64,000 nucleotides of DNA from Prochlorococcus sp. AG-355-P07 (GTDB lineage: Bacteria > Cyanobacteriota > Cyanobacteriia > PCC-6307 > Cyanobiaceae): NCBI GenBank assembly GCA_003280575.1, contig QCEN01000005.1, positions 1 through 64,000 on the forward strand, given 5' to 3'. Both the position numbers and the translations under genes were made by a program. Positions 47,069 through 53,577 of the stretch are shown here, in pieces. The notes beneath the pieces were generated by a model. That model was not told the DNA's origin and searched no databases. It saw nothing but the letters and a program-made list of their open reading frames with translations. Numbering within the stretch: position 1 is the first letter of the stretch; each line of letters opens with the position of its first letter.

Positions 47069-47243
47069 ACCGACTCATGACAACCATATTTCTAATTTAG
47101 GTCAGCCATAGATTTAAATGACTAAAAAAACATACCTCTTTCCGTACCTAAATGTTCCTCAAACCGCACACATTAGATACGCAGTATTTTAGTCAAATCA
47201 ATTAGAACAACGATGTAGCTAAACAAATATACAATGAGAATTT
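47069..47243 (+). promoter_or_regulatory. Shared leader module, copy 1
   Basis: CTCATGACAACCAT at 47069, then TTCCTCAAACCGCACACATT at 47155 and ATTAGAACAACGATGTAG near the start codon at 47244. The same elements in the same order occur upstream of the microgenes at 48540 and (minus strand) 53410. Confidence 0.7.
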
Positions 47244-47381
47244 ATGAGTGGAGATTTCGAAACACTTGAAATTAATCAACCAAAAATTACATATTTAAAA
47301 CCAGATGACAATACATATTGGTTAGACAAATTAATTAATAATATTGAGGACATGAAGAACAAGATATCAAAAGATTGCTAG
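47244..47381 (+). CDS. 45-residue microprotein under the shared leader
   Basis: GDFETLEINQPKITYLKPDD then NTYWLDKLINNIEDMKNKIS and KDC. Soluble, helical end. ATG 47244 is hand-read. It shares its upstream region, not its protein sequence, with the genes at 48540 and 53410. Confidence 0.55.
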   Translation: MSGDFETLEINQPKITYLKPDDNTYWLDKLINNIEDMKNKISKDC

Positions 47382-47516
47382 AAATTTAAGAAAGAAACTT
47401 TTTTATTAGATCTATAGTTTGAATGAGAAGCAATTCAAAAAAGAATTTAAATTTTGTATTTAAGGTAACCGCTTTTTTGTGAGCATTATTCAGAATAGGA
47501 GTCCGACTATTTTTTT

Positions 47517-47660
47517 ATGCAAAAAAATTCAAATGAAAATTCTTATAAAAAAAGAATTGAAAATATAGAAAAAGGAAAATCTTATTTAAAAAGTAATGGA
47601 TTTTTTAAATCAAAATCTAATCTATTTGAAGACATACAAAAATTTTTTTATAAAAGGTAA
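47517..47660 (+). CDS. 47-residue basic microprotein
   Basis: Lys/Asn/Ser-rich start (QKNSNENSYKKRIENIEKGK), then SYLKSNGFFKSKSNLF and EDIQKFFYKR. Charged, soluble. Overlaps the track ORF at 47596 in a different frame; the present frame has better composition in the overlap. Confidence 0.45.
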   Translation: MQKNSNENSYKKRIENIEKGKSYLKSNGFFKSKSNLFEDIQKFFYKR

Positions 47661-47757
47661 TTTTAAAAAATTTTTTACTTTTGATTTATTAAATTTCTCT
47701 ATAAGCAAGCCATCACATAAAAGAACGAAAGACTTGAAAATGTTAGGAGAAAAAAGA

Positions 47758-47871
47758 ATGGGTCAATTTTCTATAACTAAATTTAATCCCAAGAATCCTG
47801 CAGTGAAGCTAATAGCAGCAAAGATTACGAACTCGATTGAATCTCTCGGGGCAGAGTTCATAAAAAACTGA
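47758..47871 (+). CDS. 37-residue microprotein (track start too early)
   Basis: The track gives 91 residues from 47596, but the N-terminal half lies in the frame shadow of the 47517 gene and has unusual composition. ATG 47758 follows a TTAGGAG ribosome site and gives MGQFSITKFNPKNPAVKLIA then AKITNSIESLGAEFIKN. Confidence 0.5.
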   Translation: MGQFSITKFNPKNPAVKLIAAKITNSIESLGAEFIKN

Positions 47872-47875
47872 TTTG

Positions 47876-47893
47876 AGTCATAATTTTATGACT
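47876..47893. terminator. Perfect palindrome between convergent microgenes
   Basis: AGTCATAA-TT-TTATGACT, 18 bases. Sits between the ends of the genes at 47758 and 47886. No T-run, so weak as a terminator. Confidence 0.35.
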
Positions 47894-48080
47894 GGAGAGA
47901 ATCTCTTAAATCAAACTTTTCAGCTTTTTCAATTTGACACTCAGTATCATCTTCAGCGCATTTGATTTCAGCTTTTTTGTTCATGTGGCTACTACAACCG
48001 CCTGCTATAACTGGTAAACCGGTCGTAGCCGTAAAACCTGTTAAACATACAAAGGCTATAAAAGGAAAAAGTCTTTTCAT
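47886..48080 (-). CDS. 64-residue exported Cys protein
   Basis: Signal-peptide-like start (MKRLFPFIAFVCLTGFTATT), then GLPVIAGGCSSHMNKKAEIK, CAEDDTECQIEKAEKFDL. Three Cys, of which two are in C-x6-C. Small exported proteins with a CSSHMNKKAEIKC-like segment recur in Prochlorococcus by memory, but no function is known. Confidence 0.6.
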   Translation of the reverse strand: MKRLFPFIAFVCLTGFTATTGLPVIAGGCSSHMNKKAEIKCAEDDTECQIEKAEKFDLRDSLQS

Positions 48081-48151
48081 TAAATTGTTACTTTATGTAA
48101 ACTTATTATGTTACATAAAAAGCTCAAGCGTGAGTAGCTTATAGTTCGCGT

Positions 48152-48320
48152 GAACCATATACCAACCATCACTTCCCTAAATAGAAACTTTGATGGATAA
48201 TAAACATATAAAAAAATTCTGATTCTAGCAAAATTCTGGTAGATAAATTACTCCAAATCCCCTGATATGACTGAAGAAAAATTTTGGCTAATGAAAAGTG
48301 AACGCGACTAGCTAATACTT
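48152..48320 (+). repeat. Degenerate EVE-domain start repeat, copy 2
   Basis: Begins ACCATATACCAACCATCACT, then CTAAATAGAAACTTTGATGG. Downstream is an ORF fragment ATG 48267: MTEEKFWLMKSERD then stop; FWLMKSE is the EVE start. Shares the upstream block with copy 3. Confidence 0.75.
48267..48311 (+). pseudogene. EVE-domain gene fragment (14 codons)
   Basis: Codes for MTEEKFWLMKSERD followed by TAG. Full EVE proteins continue as KSEPxxYxxDDL; only the first motif is left. Not a functional gene. Confidence 0.65.
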
Positions 48321-48459
48321 GGATCTAAAGAAATCATAATTTTTTACTCAAACTTTACTCAAACTTTTTTAAATTTGAAATTAATAATTTTGAAGATATT
48401 CGGCTGGTCATTATTTTGAATTTGAGAGTCTTTTTTGATCCTTAATCCGTACAATTTTG

Positions 48460-48539
48460 TTCCTCTAACCGCACACATAAAACTTGAGATTAACTATTCA
48501 AATGAATTAGAACATAAGTGTAGTCAAGAGGTAAGTCTT
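48460..48539 (+). promoter_or_regulatory. Shared leader module, copy 2
   Basis: TTCCTCTAACCGCACACATA at 48460, then GAATTAGAACATAAGTGTAG and AAGAGG before ATG 48540. The CTCATGACAACCAT element of copies 1 and 3 is missing. Confidence 0.7.
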
Positions 48540-48692
48540 ATGGCATTAAACGACACATTTACCATCCAAGAGATGGTCTTGGATACAAAAGATCTTTCAT
48601 ACGATATTAAGGCGAAAGAACTTGAAGCTTACTGGAATAAAGAATGCGAAAAGCATCCTAGTAATAACCATTGCAAAATTTTTTGCGATTAA
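48540..48692 (+). CDS. 50-residue Cys-x8-Cys microprotein
   Basis: The track start at 48435 is too early; ATG 48540 sits after AAGAGG. ALNDTFTIQEMVLDTKDLSY then DIKAKELEAYWNKECEKHPS and NNHCKIFCD. The C-terminal ECEKHPS-x3-C motif is shared with the proteins at 48894 and 53270. Cys pattern C-x8-C-x3-C. Confidence 0.65.
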   Translation: MALNDTFTIQEMVLDTKDLSYDIKAKELEAYWNKECEKHPSNNHCKIFCD

Positions 48693-48778
48693 TACTCGAA
48701 CTTTTTAAGTATTCTTACGCTTGATTTTTATATATCATCCGTACTAAAGCATAGTCAGATAGAAAGGAGGAAAAGCAG

Positions 48779-48880
48779 ATGACTAATTTAAATATAGAGA
48801 TTCTATTTTGGGCAATTTTAGTTTCTTATCTGGGATTAAGATTTTCTAAAACCTGGGATGGCTTCAAAAAACAGTATTAA
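48779..48880 (+). CDS. 33-residue membrane microprotein, paralogue of 36.2 kb
   Basis: ATG follows AAAGGAGGA by eight bases. MTNLNIEILFWAILVSYLGL then RFSKTWDGFKKQY. Nearly the same layout as the TTG-started ORF at 36174 (MANLSLEISFWLILLIYISA...NQQY). Confidence 0.6.
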   Translation: MTNLNIEILFWAILVSYLGLRFSKTWDGFKKQY

Positions 48881-48893
48881 TTAGGAGGGAAAA

Positions 48894-49040
48894 ATGAAAC
48901 TTCAAACACAATTCACAGTTCCAAACAAAGGTCTGCGAGATCTTGATTATGTCAATAAAGTAGAAGTTTTAGAAGAAACTTTTAAGAGAGAATGTCAAGA
49001 TTACCCAACTAAAGAAGATTGTTTAGTTTGTTGTAACTGA
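48894..49040 (+). CDS. 48-residue Cys-x8-Cys microprotein
   Basis: Strong ribosome site TTAGGAGGG. KLQTQFTVPNKGLRDLDYVN then KVEVLEETFKRECQDYPTKE and DCLVCCN. Same C-terminal plan as 48540: E-C-x8-C-x2/3-C. It follows the 33-residue membrane ORF by 13 bases, so the two are co-transcribed. Confidence 0.65.
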   Translation: MKLQTQFTVPNKGLRDLDYVNKVEVLEETFKRECQDYPTKEDCLVCCN

Positions 49041-49112
49041 CTATTCATTAATCGGTTTTCATAGCTTATAAATTTTAAAAATATTCATAAATTTTTAAGG
49101 AGAGGTTTAACT

Positions 49113-49631
49113 ATGAAATTAAAATTCATGCCAACAAAAATTTTTAGAGAGACTCCAAAAGTTATATTCTTTGATGCAGGATTGGGGGCATCTAATGGTT
49201 GTGATGTGGTAATTCATTCTGAAGAAGCTATATCTCCTCCAGATGATTTTAAAGATGAGCAATATTACGTTCACAATCATCAAATTGATCACAACTTAGT
49301 TATTACTGGGGAAAGAATATTTGTTTTAATAAATCCTGCATGGGATGAACCTCATCATGTGATTTATTTAAATAGATCTATGGGAGCTTTAGAAATTCCT
49401 GTTGGAACTTATCACAGATCAATCTCAGGAAAAGAAGGAAGTATTGTTTTAAATCAACCCACAAGAGATAATTTTTTTGATCCAGCTAAAGAATTTATCC
49501 CACAAAAATTAGACCAAATAAGTTTAATAAAGGCAAGAAAAACTCCACCTGTTTATTGGGTTTGGGAAAATGATCAAATTAAGAGAGTTGGGTTTAATCC
49601 CTTAGAACGAAGAATTAAGACCCTTGCTTAA
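49113..49631 (+). CDS. RmlC-like cupin protein
   Basis: 172 residues. ETPKVIFFDAGLGASNGCDV then a cupin-type core HNHQIDHNLVITGERIFVLI, DEPHHVIYLNRSMGALEIPV and GTYHRSISGKEGSIVLNQPT. The alternating His-rich strands support a cupin barrel; metal binding by HNH...DH and HH is likely. No substrate can be named. AAGGAGAGG precedes ATG 49113. The next gene starts one base after the stop. Confidence 0.7.
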   Translation: MKLKFMPTKIFRETPKVIFFDAGLGASNGCDVVIHSEEAISPPDDFKDEQYYVHNHQIDHNLVITGERIFVLINPAWDEPHHVIYLNRSMGALEIPVGTYHRSISGKEGSIVLNQPTRDNFFDPAKEFIPQKLDQISLIKARKTPPVYWVWENDQIKRVGFNPLERRIKTLA

Positions 49632-49632
49632 T

Positions 49633-50499
49633 ATGAACAAAACACAAAAAGGTATTTCAACCAAAATTAATAATTCAAAAAATCTGAATTTAATTATTAA
49701 TTCTGATACGTATAAATTGGCTTATGAAGATATTGGTTTGCTCAACAGAAACGAAATGCGCGGAGTCAGAATGCTGCTTGAAATTACTAAACCAGATTTA
49801 ATCCTAGAAGAAAATAAAATTCTTTCAACCATAATAATTTTTGGAGGCGCAAGTATTACAGAAGAATCAAAAACAAAAGAGAAAATTGACGAAATAAAAA
49901 AGTTAATTAAAAAAAATCCTTCATCGGTTTTGCTTAAACGAAATTTAAGTAGATTAGAAAATTTGCTATCAATGAGTCACTATTATCAATCCGCAAGAGA
50001 GTTTTCTAAACTTGCTTCAAAAAATAATCAAAGTAAATCATGTAATTCTCATGTGATTGTGACTGGTGGGGGTCCAGGGATTATGGAAGCTGCTAATAGA
50101 GGTGCGTTTGAAGCAAATTGTAAATCTATAGGGTTAAATATCAGTCTTCCCAATGAACAAATCCCCAATGCTTTTATAACACCAGGTCTATGCTTTAAAT
50201 TTAATTATTTTGCATTAAGAAAGATCCATTTCGTCATGCGATCAATAGGAGCTGTATTTTTCCCTGGGGGTTTTGGAACATTAGATGAATTATTTGAACT
50301 TTTAACACTTCGTCAAACAGGAATGAAAAACAAAATCCCAATAATACTTTTTGGAAGAGAATATTGGGATAAGATAATTAACTTCGAATATCTAGCTGAT
50401 CTTGGATTAATTTCAGATGAGCACTTAAAACTTTTTGAATATGCAGACACCGCATCCGAAGCATGGGAAATTATCAAATCATCAAATATCTCAGATTAG
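49633..50499 (+). CDS. LOG-family (lysine decarboxylase-like) protein
   Basis: 288 residues from ATG 49633. HVIVTGGGPGIMEAANRGAF, SIGLNISLPNEQ and the catalytic PGGFGTLDELFELLT are LOG/TIGR00730 motifs. The LOG family contains cytokinin-activating phosphoribohydrolases and AMP nucleosidase-like enzymes. The N-terminal region of 110 residues is extra compared with short LOG proteins. Co-transcribed with the cupin. Confidence 0.83.
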   Translation: MNKTQKGISTKINNSKNLNLIINSDTYKLAYEDIGLLNRNEMRGVRMLLEITKPDLILEENKILSTIIIFGGASITEESKTKEKIDEIKKLIKKNPSSVLLKRNLSRLENLLSMSHYYQSAREFSKLASKNNQSKSCNSHVIVTGGGPGIMEAANRGAFEANCKSIGLNISLPNEQIPNAFITPGLCFKFNYFALRKIHFVMRSIGAVFFPGGFGTLDELFELLTLRQTGMKNKIPIILFGREYWDKIINFEYLADLGLISDEHLKLFEYADTASEAWEIIKSSNISD

Positions 50500-50514
50500 G
50501 ATAGGTATCCAAAA

Positions 50515-50750
50515 AATAATGAAGTTTCCCCATACCACCCATCACTTTCCTAAATAGAAGCTTTAATGGATAATGATTTTATAAAGGCAAATCTTATATT
50601 TCATTCACGATTCATTCACGATTTGCAATATTCTCTTAATCCCTTGATATGACTGATATTAATTACTGGCTAATGAAAAGTGAGCCAGTATTCATGGCAA
50701 TGGATTTCAAAAACCGTTAAAAAAATGTTCACGATATATTCACGATTTTT
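50515..50750 (+). repeat. Degenerate EVE-domain start repeat, copy 3
   Basis: Begins ATACCACCCATCACTTTCCT (compare copy 2), then an ORF fragment ATG 50649 with YWLMKSEP, then AAAAAATGTTCACGATATA (compare copy 1). This copy links the two others. Confidence 0.8.
50649..50720 (+). pseudogene. EVE-domain gene fragment (23 codons)
   Basis: MTDINYWLMKSEPVFMAMDF then KNR and stop. YWLMKSEP is the invariant N-terminal motif of EVE-domain proteins (modified-base readers). The rest of the domain, about 110 residues, is gone. Confidence 0.75.
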
Positions 50751-50777
50751 ACAGCTAAAATAAATTGAAAAAATTTG

Positions 50778-50930
50778 ATGATAATGGCAATTTCAAACTA
50801 TAGAAAGCAAAGGATAATGCTATTAGCAAGACTCAATCTTGGTTTAGCTAGTGAAGATAAAGAAGAAATTGATCTTTATAATCACTATCAAAAAAATATT
50901 TATTCAGAACAAAATCACCAGCAGCAATAA
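50778..50930 (+). CDS. 50-residue basic microprotein
   Basis: MIMAISNYRKQRIMLLARLN then LGLASEDKEEIDLYNHYQKN. A second ATG at 50784 is equally possible. Helical, amphipathic. Palindrome copy B follows ten bases after its stop. Confidence 0.5.
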   Translation: MIMAISNYRKQRIMLLARLNLGLASEDKEEIDLYNHYQKNIYSEQNHQQQ

Positions 50931-50940
50931 AAAATAACTT

Positions 50941-50980
50941 ATTGACAATCGATCTAAAATAAGGGGCATTAGCTCCTTTT
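50941..50980 (+). repeat. GATTGAC palindrome repeat, copy B
   Basis: ATTGACAATCGATCTAAAAT then AAGGGGC / GCTCCTT hairpin and TTTTC. It sits 3 bases before the DUF3804 start, so its hairpin would lie in that gene's 5' UTR or end the preceding transcript. Confidence 0.75.
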
Positions 50981-50983
50981 CTA

Positions 50984-51367
50984 ATGTCAAATACTAAAGC
51001 CATAGAAGATTTAATTAATGGTTATGCAACCAGTGAAGATTCTTCTTTTCTAATACCAAACGTAACTGAAGATTTTTTAGCTGTAAGACCAAGTGGAAAT
51101 CCTATATCTGCTAAGGGATTAGAGGGAATGTTTGATAGCAAAGACTTAGTTGCAGAATCATCAGAACTAATCAAAATCCACAAAATTGAAATTTACGGTG
51201 AGATAGCTTACGCAGTTTTTACTTTAAATGAAATCTTCAGTTATAAAGGAAATCAAAATAAAGATCTTTCAACTTATACTTGCATTTTTAAAAATGTAAA
51301 TGGTACTTGGAAGTATTCTTGGATGCAAAGATCTCAAGGCACTACTGATATGACCACATGGGAATAA
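50984..51367 (+). CDS. DUF3804 (NTF2-like) protein, paralogue of 41.0 kb
   Basis: 127 residues: EDFLAVRPSGNPISAKGLEG then LIKIHKIEIYGEIAYAVFTL, FSYKGNQNKDLSTYTCIF and WKYSWMQRSQGTTDMTTWE. Similarity to 41006-41392 covers the whole length. Its stop abuts the MKRFLIPL relic. Confidence 0.78.
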   Translation: MSNTKAIEDLINGYATSEDSSFLIPNVTEDFLAVRPSGNPISAKGLEGMFDSKDLVAESSELIKIHKIEIYGEIAYAVFTLNEIFSYKGNQNKDLSTYTCIFKNVNGTWKYSWMQRSQGTTDMTTWE

Positions 51368-51460
51368 ATGAAAAGATTCCTAATCCCACTGCTAGCTGCT
51401 CAAGCATTGCCTATGAATAGTTGTGAGTTCTTTAGGTTAAAGCTAAGAATTCTTTTGTAA
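51368..51460 (+). pseudogene. Signal-peptide relic MKRFLIPLLAAQALP
   Basis: ATG directly follows the DUF3804 stop. MKRFLIPLLAAQALPMNSCE then FFRLKLRILL. The first 15 residues match MKRLLLPLLAALALPT at 54562, but the mature part is lost. Overlaps the end of the PepSY-like gene on the other strand. Confidence 0.55.
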
Positions 51461-51703
51461 TAATCTAATGCCAGATATTACAGAGATTATCGATGCAATA
51501 CCAAGAAATATCGAATAAAAAGGCTGCAAATTAATAATGCCAAAATTACCTGTATGCCATTTGATCAACCCAAAAGCATCTACTCCTAATGGTTGAAGAA
51601 AACTATAGATAGTCCCAGATATAAGAGTAATTAATAAAGGTATTGAAGAAATTGCAGCTACTTTTCTATGTATTTTCCTTTTACTAAGTTTAAATTTTTG
51701 CGT
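51443..51703 (-). CDS. PepSY-like membrane protein, start codon not found
   Basis: About 86 codons in frame directly after the DUF3721 stop: KRKIHRKVAAISSIPLLITL, SGTIYSFLQPLGVDAFGLIK, WHTGNFGIINLQPFYSIFLG, IASIISVISGIRLLQKNS. KxHRxxA...P...SG and W-H-x-G resemble the membrane ends of PepSY-associated proteins. There is no ATG, GTG or TTG before residue 35. It is a start-codon loss, a non-standard start or a readthrough tail of DUF3721. Confidence 0.5.
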   Translation of the reverse strand, partial: TQKFKLSKRKIHRKVAAISSIPLLITLISGTIYSFLQPLGVDAFGLIKWHTGNFGIINLQPFYSIFLGIASIISVISGIRLLQKNS

Positions 51704-51925
51704 TTACATTCTTAGGTACTTATGTAATTCTTTTTCATCCTCACATGGAAGCCATTTCTCTTTGTTCTTATGTGTTCCTTGACAACCAAGTTCTAATGAC
51801 TTTTTTAAAGCATCTTGCTCAGAAGAATATGTTCCTTTCATATGAGCATGTGAATATGAATTGAAATTAAGAAATATAAAAATGAAAAAAGTAAGAATTT
51901 TTATCTTTCTAAAAACAAAAGTCAT
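51704..51925 (-). CDS. DUF3721 family exported protein
   Basis: 73 residues: hydrophobic signal (ILTFFIFIFLNFNSYSHAH) then MKGTYSSEQDALKKSLELGC, QGTHKNKEKWLPCEDEKELH, KYLRM. Typical small DUF3721 protein with two Cys, linked by neighbourhood to metal-resistance genes. Followed in frame by the PepSY-like region after one stop. Confidence 0.8.
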   Translation of the reverse strand: MTFVFRKIKILTFFIFIFLNFNSYSHAHMKGTYSSEQDALKKSLELGCQGTHKNKEKWLPCEDEKELHKYLRM

Positions 51926-51948
51926 TATTAATCAAATTAGTATTTTTG

Positions 51949-52467
51949 TTAGGGTGAAATTTTGTCGAATATTTTTGTTTTGCCACTATTACTAAATGAA
52001 ACTACTTTGTAATTTTCATAATTATGCGAGTGTGATTCGTGAGAATGCATTTCCATTCCAGGCGAACCAAGAGGCATGCCAGGAACTGCTATACCAGAGA
52101 TAATTGGTTTTTCTTTAAAAAGTTTAGTGATTGATTCAATCGGCACATGTCCTTCAATTGCGTAGTTTCCTATTTTTGCAGAGTGGCAGGACCTTAAATT
52201 ATTGGGAATTTTATATTGGTTTTTAATTCCCGAAACATCTTCAAGAATATTATCAACAACTTCTAATCCATTTTGGCGTAAATGATTTACCCATTTCTTA
52301 CAACAACCGCATGATGCTGATCTATAAGAAACGACTTTAGGTATATCTATATTATCTTGATTTTTAGCACTACTCTTTTGGGCATTAAATATATTTACTA
52401 TGAGAAATCCAGAAAATAAAAGAGTCTTTAGTAAATGCTTCTTAAAGAATGATTTCTTAAATGCCAT
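51949..52467 (-). CDS. DUF411 metal-binding protein
   Basis: 172 residues: N-terminal signal/anchor (HLLKTLLFSGFLIVNIF), then PKVVSYRSASCGCCKKWVNH (CGCC), NNLRSCHSAKIGNYAIEGHV, IPGMPLGSPGMEM-like methionines (GIAVPGMPLGSPGMEMHSHE) and a His-rich end. Cys, Met and His suggest copper binding. DUF411 proteins are found in copper-resistance loci. Confidence 0.85.
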   Translation of the reverse strand: MAFKKSFFKKHLLKTLLFSGFLIVNIFNAQKSSAKNQDNIDIPKVVSYRSASCGCCKKWVNHLRQNGLEVVDNILEDVSGIKNQYKIPNNLRSCHSAKIGNYAIEGHVPIESITKLFKEKPIISGIAVPGMPLGSPGMEMHSHESHSHNYENYKVVSFSNSGKTKIFDKISP

Positions 52468-52528
52468 TTCAGTAAGGAATTCTTATTTTCAAAACTATTA
52501 ATAAAATAAATGAAATTTTATAAAATTG

Positions 52529-52981
52529 TTATTTAATCAAAATCAAAGCACTCATAATTGCCATTAAAAGATTTTCAATAAAACTAATAACTCCTAAAGG
52601 AATTTTTGTATATCCTCCAACGCATGCACAATTTAATTTTAATTTATCTAAATAAACAGCTTTAAAAACTGATGCCATTCCAAAAATTCCTAGTATTAAA
52701 GCAATTAAAATAATTAAAGAGGGAGGTGAAGATAGTAAAAAACATAAGCCAATTAATAATTCGCAAAAAGGATAGATATAAATCCAATTTTTAAATCGAG
52801 AAGTAATTAAATCATATTTTTTATAACTCAAACCAAAAGCTTCAATATCCATAAGCTTCAGCATCGCTAAAAGACATATTGATATGCCCATAAAAACTTG
52901 GAAGCTTTTAATCAAAATAATAGTTATAAGAAATGAAGTACCAAATACTGCAACCAATGGTGTAAAAGACTTTAATTGCAT
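52529..52981 (-). CDS. MauE/DoxX-like membrane protein
   Basis: 150 residues with four helices. FQVFMGISICLLAMLKLMDI, KNWIYIYPFCELLIGLCFLL, KLKLNCACVGGYTKIPLGVI and a last helix. The C-x-C-V-G-G in a loop plus the final NLLMAIMSALIL place it with MauE/DoxX-like proteins, which handle redox or metal chemistry in membranes. Part of the DUF411 operon. Confidence 0.75.
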   Translation of the reverse strand: MQLKSFTPLVAVFGTSFLITIILIKSFQVFMGISICLLAMLKLMDIEAFGLSYKKYDLITSRFKNWIYIYPFCELLIGLCFLLSSPPSLIILIALILGIFGMASVFKAVYLDKLKLNCACVGGYTKIPLGVISFIENLLMAIMSALILIK

Positions 52982-52984
52982 TTT

Positions 52985-53227
52985 TTAACTTTTAAGAACA
53001 GAGTCACAAATACTAGATGGATTTGCCTGCTTAACTATTCTTAGCTTTTTGATAAGAGTGTCTCGATCTATTTGATGTTTTAAATATTTAATACAAAGAT
53101 TCTTTTCCCTATTTAAATAAGCTTCTGTTCTTAAACTGCTAGCAATAGAGAATAAATTAATAGCAATAATCGCTAATAAAATGCTCATTGGGTATTTTTT
53201 GATAAAAGGAAGAACTTTATTTTTCAT
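52985..53227 (-). CDS. 80-residue membrane-anchored protein, first of the DUF411 operon
   Basis: Single N-terminal helix (MSILLAIIAINLFSIASSL) then a soluble Cys-containing domain (NLCIKYLKHQIDRDTLIKKL; NPSSICDSVLKS). Two Cys. The stop is three bases before the MauE-like start, so they are co-transcribed. Unknown family. Confidence 0.55.
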   Translation of the reverse strand: MKNKVLPFIKKYPMSILLAIIAINLFSIASSLRTEAYLNREKNLCIKYLKHQIDRDTLIKKLRIVKQANPSSICDSVLKS

Positions 53228-53269
53228 TATTTATAATCTTTATTTTAATCTAAATAGCATAGCAATATT

Positions 53270-53410
53270 TTAAATTTCGCAGCCGCGATATGAAGGGTTC
53301 TCTTCACACTTAAGTTTCCAATAAATTACTTTAATATTTGCTCCATTATCTATATCATTAATAGTCCTAAAGTATTTAGGAATGATTGTATAAGGAACTC
53401 TTTTATTCAT
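53270..53410 (-). CDS. 46-residue Cys-x8-Cys microprotein under the shared leader
   Basis: Hand-read from ATG 53410: NKRVPYTIIPKYFRTINDID then NGANIKVIYWKLKCEENPSY and RGCEI. YW-x3-C-E-x-N-P-S-x3-C matches the end of the 48540 protein (YW-x3-C-E-x-H-P-S). It lies 42 bases from the DUF411 operon start on the same strand and could be its first gene. Confidence 0.65.
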   Translation of the reverse strand: MNKRVPYTIIPKYFRTINDIDNGANIKVIYWKLKCEENPSYRGCEI

Positions 53411-53577
53411 GATTTCCTCTTACTTACTACACCTATGCTCTAACTACCTACGCATATTATTTATGAGTATCACAATGTACGGTTTAAGGAAGAATAAAGT
53501 TCGGGTAGAGGACCAAATTTTGAGACTGTTATTTAATTACCAGTCCTAGGATTAATACATGGTTGTCATGAGGCAGT
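53411..53577 (-). promoter_or_regulatory. Shared leader module, copy 3
   Basis: Read on the minus strand: CTCATGACAACCAT (near 53575), then TTCCTTAAACCGTACATTGT (53491) and TTAGAGCATAGGTGTAG before AGAGG and the ATG at 53410. The spacing between the first two elements equals that of copy 1 (about 85 bases). A 24-codon ORF (53475-53549, plus) crosses it and was not annotated. Confidence 0.7.

Follow-up and report, generated by a model that had tools for sequence, protein, structure and literature searches.

The first 64,000 nucleotides of contig QCEN01000005.1 of Prochlorococcus sp. AG-355-P07 (hereafter the window) contain three copies of a short module with two direct repeats, each located upstream of a microgene for a protein of 45, 50 or 46 amino acids (aa). 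On balance we consider it probable that this module is a promoter/operator which defines a microprotein regulon of high-light (HL) Prochlorococcus, and that those members with a C-terminal tail like that of CP12 tune GAPDH. The connection of the module's microproteins with the CP12 tail is unreported within the literature searched and is the main addition to an earlier first-pass annotation of the window, which had been made from the sequence alone. A literature search, with subscription papers and supplementary tables outside its scope, found no account of the promoter or of CP12-like microproteins in Prochlorococcus.

Architecture and distribution of the module

The first-pass annotation had described a leader common to the genes at 47244, 48540 and 53410 (minus strand). 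All three of its elements were recovered by a pattern search of the window. TTCCTY-n-AACCGYACA is present exactly at 47155-47170 (+), 48460-48475 (+) and 53476-53491 (−), and TTAGARCA-N4-TGTAG exactly at 47202, 48507 and 53443 (−); every other site in the window has at least two mismatches to the latter. The gap between both elements is nearly constant (31, 31 and 32 bases in copies 1, 2 and 3). Copy 3 reads GTTAGAGCA instead of the annotated ATTAGA. The far-upstream sequence CTCATGACAACCAT is shared by copies 1 and 3 as described, but begins 81 and not 85 bases 5′ of TTCCT, which is 61 bp 5′ of box 1. Moreover, the annotation covered only one half of the module and missed a second copy of the box 22 bp upstream in each case. 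The complete module comprises direct repeats (CCTYWWnCCGTAC / CCTYAAACCGYAC) with an offset of exactly 22 bp and N9 between the boxes, followed by about 31 bp of unconserved spacer and by TTAGAAC-AT-nnn-TGTAG. The tandem pattern CCTNNANCCGNAC-N9-CCTNNANCCGNAC gave three matches in the window versus 0.00 in 100 shuffles.

Copying of the whole unit, as suggested earlier, holds for copies 1 and 3, whose alignment extends about 90 bp beyond the module on the 5′ side (local score 31, against a maximum of 15 in 500 shuffles), but not for copy 2, which shares the functional blocks alone. This indicates constraint or an old common origin.

A genome-wide search revealed five copies in this genome, namely those of the window, C10:23741-23831 (−) and C1:80791-80872 (+), so the module is not confined to the window. 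Behind the fifth copy (L112) stands a degenerate version of gene E without an intact 61-aa open reading frame (ORF), unlike the situation in most relatives examined, where gene E is intact. Of 200 high-light Prochlorococcus genomes searched, 136 contain the exact gapped pattern, whereas the control with the reversed pattern was 0 in every genome among those listed. A model derived from ten leader sequences matched in 59 of 60 near-complete genomes (one to nine copies each). In a sample of 200 genomes of the family it matched strongly in all 25 members of the genus, while the remaining approximately 175 genomes gave no match better than E = 0.02. As judged by these searches the module is genus-specific, with nothing convincing outside the genus. 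A single match on a viral contig (L203), unrelated and richer in GC, was taken as chance. Low-light (LL) relatives retain TAGAACAT 5′ of the Shine-Dalgarno sequence of a related gene, and the tandem boxes are absent at these loci (L373, L374, L380, L381). Inspection of the canonical CP12 locus (L336) revealed no module upstream.

In genome G015 modules are located at 351167 (−), 818884 (+), 1346890 (−), 1360212 (−) and 1364350 (−). Here the tandem boxes also occur in reversed orientation (L174 2083-2128 and L204 2906-2959), about 115 bp upstream of divergent ORFs of 49 and 41 aa and adjoined by a conserved AT-rich, TATAAAT-like stretch.

The module as a probable promoter/operator

Comparison of five class consensuses showed 82% and 88% identity for the two boxes and 100% for TTAGAAC. 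Identity of the spacer was 38%, which is little above chance in AT-rich DNA. The boxes and TTAGAAC were thus kept while the spacer diverged, which argues for functional constraint and not for recent copying. The consensus RNA fold of the module has 0 pairs and no covariation, and Rfam gave no match at E ≤ 1. Because RNA structure is absent and conserved blocks stand at fixed spacing, the module looks like a promoter/operator rather than a transcribed leader, the term used in the first-pass annotation.

The conserved blocks lie at about −80 to −7 if transcription is taken to start directly 5′ of the Shine-Dalgarno sequence, which is a plausible site. With TTAGAAC as the putative −10 element, transcription would start at about TGTAG and yield a short leader with the Shine-Dalgarno sequence, which would place the boxes at about −78 to −43. 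The distance from box 1 to the ATG is 97-101 nt for microgenes A, B, C, E and F, 110 nt for D and 88-89 nt for G, H and I. The G/H/I group has no TTAGAAC and carries a TATAAAT-like sequence directly after box 2 instead. For the box scores the background included loci picked for their boxes, so its use was restricted to the 95th percentile (−10.7), alongside the raw scores. Genes J and G (L372; L208-L210) have a near-identical leader with two AGGAGG but differ in the promoter parts further upstream, as would result from an exchange of promoters on a common leader.

Microgenes behind the module

Genes downstream of the module were surveyed at the fetched loci, which represent a subset of the hits and genomes. 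The full module precedes microgenes A (50 aa), B (45 aa), C (46 aa), D (45 aa), E (61 aa) and F (61-62 aa), and tandem boxes with a different downstream part precede G (60 aa), H (52 aa) and I (48 aa). At few loci (e.g. L207, L211, L217) short frames without an intact family member follow the box. Among the fetched loci CTCATGACAACCAT is restricted to classes C and D, in nearly all occurrences at the 61 bp offset. Codon comparison resulted in a pN/pS of 0.15-0.33 in all microprotein families tested; therefore, the microgenes are translated and under purifying selection. No family of Pfam, NCBIfam or PADLOC reached its cut-off with the microproteins. The recurrence of the module before unrelated microgenes, both genome-wide and genus-wide, lends good support to the idea of a microprotein regulon put forward in the first-pass annotation, and comparative genomics supports the view of the module as a portable regulatory unit that marks this regulon. 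Features of the window are listed in Table 1. From their spacing, A and I are probably on the same transcript.

Table 1 Module copies and microgenes in the window
Feature	Position	Strand	Remarks
Copy 1, upstream element CTCATGACAACCAT	47074..47087	+	
Copy 1, operator box 1 CCTCTTTCCGTAC	47135..47147	+	
Copy 1, operator box 2 CCTCAAACCGCAC	47157..47169	+	22 bp after box 1
Copy 1, putative −10 element TTAGAAC	47202..47208	+	presumed role
Copy 1, TGTAG block, putative start-site region	47214..47218	+	presumed role
Microgene D	47244..47381	+	45 aa, MSGDFETLEINQPK...; pN/pS 0.21
Copy 2, operator box 1 CCTTAATCCGTAC	48440..48452	+	
Copy 2, operator box 2 CCTCTAACCGCAC	48462..48474	+	
Copy 2, putative −10 element TTAGAAC	48507..48513	+	
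Copy 2, TGTAG block	48519..48523	+	
Microgene A	48540..48692	+	50 aa, CP12-like tail CEKHPSNNHCKIFCD; pN/pS 0.25
Microgene I	48894..49040	+	48 aa, CP12-like tail CQDYPTKEDCLVCCN
Microgene C	53270..53410	−	46 aa, shortened CP12-like tail CEENPSYRGCEI; pN/pS 0.15
Copy 3, TGTAG block	53427..53431	−	
Copy 3, putative −10 element TTAGAGC	53437..53443	−	
Copy 3, operator box 2 CCTTAAACCGTAC	53477..53489	−	
Copy 3, operator box 1 CCTCTACCCGAAC	53499..53511	−	
Copy 3, upstream element CTCATGACAACCAT	53559..53572	−	

A CP12-like tail in the largest microprotein family

The protein encoded at 47244 differs from the other two, as had been noticed, and those encoded at 48540 and 53410 belong to one superfamily. 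It consists of A, C, F, G and I together with J, K and L, which lack boxes. The N-termini mostly read M-(K/N/A)-L-x3-F-(T/S/N)-I and the C-termini C-x3-P-x4-C, usually followed by (L/K)-(V/I)-Y-x-D. The residues C, P and C are invariant in 12 of 12 aligned members and are also present in members from LL Prochlorococcus, Synechococcus and phage. A hidden Markov model (HMM) of the superfamily (A2) was compared with all 177,635 PDB sequences and gave eight matches at E ≤ 10, all of them CP12 or GapB/GapA-chimera tails (best E-value 0.0078). With a tail-only HMM (A6) the top six PDB matches were CP12/GapB, and one unrelated match appeared at E = 2. Profile-profile comparison (hhalign) with CP12 gave 84.7% and 93.6%. 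The canonical host CP12 (72 aa, G000 C22) ends with CDANPDEPECLVYDD and family F with CELNPSDPRCLVYDD. In Synechocystis CP12 the C-terminal Cys60 and Cys69, which have the same C-x8-C spacing, are the docking site for GapDH2 (PMC9623430).

The tail-family profile was present in all 16 genomes of the genus that were sampled (three to nine copies each). The tail family was also found in LL Prochlorococcus-like and in Synechococcus-like genera, the latter with a 59-aa tail protein that ends with CDKSPTAPGCKIYDD. Furthermore, a hypothetical protein of cyanophage P-TIM68 (AIR93482.1, L345 2998-3153) has a CP12-like tail and shares 61% identity with the low-light K type. Its occurrence in LL relatives, Synechococcus-like genera and phage implies that the tail family predates the HL-only promoter and is more widespread.

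Synechococcus-like genomes (L367, L368, L369) have CP12-tail microproteins of their own, 59 and 49 aa long and apparently undescribed. Assignment of the Synechococcus A2 matches to canonical CP12 was rejected, as L367, L368 and L370 read as another CP12-tail microprotein.

The microproteins share the C-terminal Cys-x3-Pro-x4-Cys-x2-Tyr-x-Asp tail with CP12 (PF02672, including CP12-C types and cyanophage CP12), but have an unrelated N-terminus (M-K/N-L-x-x-x-F-T/S-I), occur as several paralogues per genome and are preceded by a common promoter. The C-terminal extension of plant GapB, matched by both profiles, likewise represents a CP12 tail detached from CP12 and is an autoinhibitor of GAPDH. 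There the tail is fused to GAPDH, whereas the Prochlorococcus tail proteins are free microproteins. IF7/IF17, PirA and CfrA/PirC (review PMC7760959) correspond to the proposed principle of a small protein binding a metabolic enzyme, but differ in sequences, targets and promoters.

Proposed mechanism

In the mechanism we propose, a DNA-binding regulator would occupy the two direct repeats (CCTYWWnCCGTAC), which are two helical turns apart, and would drive RNA polymerase at the weak −10 element (TTAGAAC) at a fixed distance. Transcription would then start near TGTAG, just 5′ of the Shine-Dalgarno sequence. Members of its largest target family (A, C, F, G and I) would have the tail with which CP12 docks on GAPDH, but no other part of CP12. 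Once induced, these tail microproteins would most likely bind GAPDH via the (oxidised) Cys-x8-Cys tail and damp the flux through the Calvin cycle, the lever that cyanophages encoding CP12 also use. CP12 itself damps the Calvin cycle in darkness (review PMC7760959). The unrelated partners B, D and E would act on other targets.

More tentatively, it is possible that HL Prochlorococcus has a dedicated regulon of stand-alone GAPDH-docking microproteins and unrelated partner microproteins under one genus-specific operator, which would divert carbon from the Calvin cycle, and that cyanophages follow the same strategy, P-TIM68 with the same type of microprotein. The microprotein set may represent a built-in brake on carbon metabolism. 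The Prochlorococcus genome is described as streamlined and as encoding very few regulatory proteins (PMC2518516). A promoter that marks undescribed microproteins throughout the genus offers direct access to a regulon. Through the match to the CP12 tail, microgenes labelled "hypothetical" become testable candidates for regulators of carbon fixation in a highly abundant ocean phototroph. If true, the proposal would also suggest that the CP12 tail serves as a detachable docking tag which has been put to use again in small host proteins, in plant GapB and in phages.

Alternative explanations

Several features weigh against this proposal, and some of them would fit the alternative that the module is indeed a regulon promoter but that the tail arose by convergence on a short disulfide-hairpin motif whose function is unrelated to GAPDH, which we regard as rather unlikely. 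The similarity to CP12 spans only about 20 residues, and even the better PDB E-values are only 0.008-0.06. Single microproteins stay below the Pfam gathering score for CP12: PF02672 gave 16.6 bits for F, 14.7 for L and none for the others, at a cut-off of 22.7, compared with 67 for the canonical host CP12. By inspection the AWD_VEE core is absent from all superfamily members, and the N-terminal Cys pair for PRK docking is absent from the A2 members; the canonical CP12 of Prochlorococcus lacks both as well. Class C is without the final Y-x-D, the AlphaFold model of A is of low confidence (pLDDT 59), and HLII versions of F have lost the CP12-like tail. Promoter and tail are only partly coupled, since B, D, E and H have the promoter without the tail and some tail genes (J, K, L) have no boxes. 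TTAGAAC is a poor −10 element. On the other hand, convergence does not readily explain why two profiles retrieve CP12 and GapB tails first, and hardly anything else, from the whole PDB, why the motif is located at the extreme C-terminus as in CP12, or why the versions from LL Prochlorococcus, Synechococcus and phage all end in the CxxxPxxxxCxVYxD type.

Other alternatives concern the module itself. Recognition by a known regulator (NtcA or another CRP-family factor, PhoB or LexA) would be compatible with the regulon proposal and is in our view unlikely. Of 104 distinct sites, 97 have a GTA-N8-TNC core between the boxes, which makes NtcA or another CRP-family factor a possible regulator, and nearly half of the sites (45/104) hold the exact GTA-N8-TAC of NtcA-type promoters. 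Nevertheless, the exact form is missing from all three window copies, and the flanking CCT/CCG, for which NtcA has no requirement, is among the most constrained positions. The direct repeats at 22 bp and the spacing to the −10 element also differ from NtcA-type promoters. The TTAGAACA half resembles a LexA half-site, but the LexA boxes of MED4, AGTACACATGTACT (PMC3091678), do not fit the module, and the RGTACNNNDGTWCB / AGTACWNWTGTACT box is not contained in the conserved TTAGAACAT-nnn-TGTAG. As for PhoB and the Pho regulon, the pstS promoter of G015 has no module boxes by inspection. Moreover, the known regulators are general whereas the module is HL-only. Post-transcriptional action of an RNA leader, either riboswitch-like or as a target element of a small RNA, is very unlikely. 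Such a leader would agree with the position of the module directly 5′ of Shine-Dalgarno sequences, with the common leader of the G/J genes and with a TGTAG block that can be read as start-stop NTG-TAG. The latter reading of TTAGAACAT-N3-TGTAG is favoured by N being A, G or T in 90 of 92 cases, but weakened by depletion of C at all four neighbouring positions and by class E and LL genes without the element. In addition to the lack of consensus structure, covariation and an Rfam match, the conserved blocks are parted by unconserved DNA at fixed spacing, and boxes also stand reversed upstream of other small ORFs. Finally, the copies might be relics of gene duplication in hypervariable islands, kept by recent ancestry or gene conversion and not by shared regulation. 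Copies 1 and 3 are alignable beyond the module, and several G015 copies cluster at about 1.344-1.364 Mb in or near island 5, yet this explanation is hardly credible given that the spacers diverged as described with the boxes and TTAGAAC retained, that classes B and E are located elsewhere in the genome and that nearly all near-complete genomes keep the module.

Further observations on the microgenes and their neighbours

In the F versions at L261, L262 and L279 (3′ of gene E) the N-terminus is kept and the tail is replaced by VHHRRDLDS(L/F)G. A PHROGs search connected E with phrog_8866 and, weakly, F with phrog_627, the phage CP12 family. All named relatives of microprotein E are from genomes of Prochlorococcus or related picocyanobacteria, including MIT 9401 and MIT 9314, which identifies the genome of the window as that of an HL Prochlorococcus. 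Its AlphaFold model has a beta-beta-alpha-beta arrangement (pLDDT 67) and resembles the T7 Gp2 / RNA-polymerase epsilon fold, with T7 Gp2 as the best Foldseek match and the RNA-polymerase-binding YkzG near the top, although the E-values were not significant. T7 Gp2 is an inhibitor of RNA polymerase. A weak relative of E is present in the cyanophages P-HM1 and MED4-213; the P-HM1 gene (PHM1_219, L346 2992-3153) adjoins PTOX and is located near CP12 and talC.

Downstream of microgene I a 172-aa protein without a Pfam match is encoded (window 49113-49628). It occupies the same position in G015 and is followed there, on the same strand, by a cluster of high-light-inducible-like (hli) genes.

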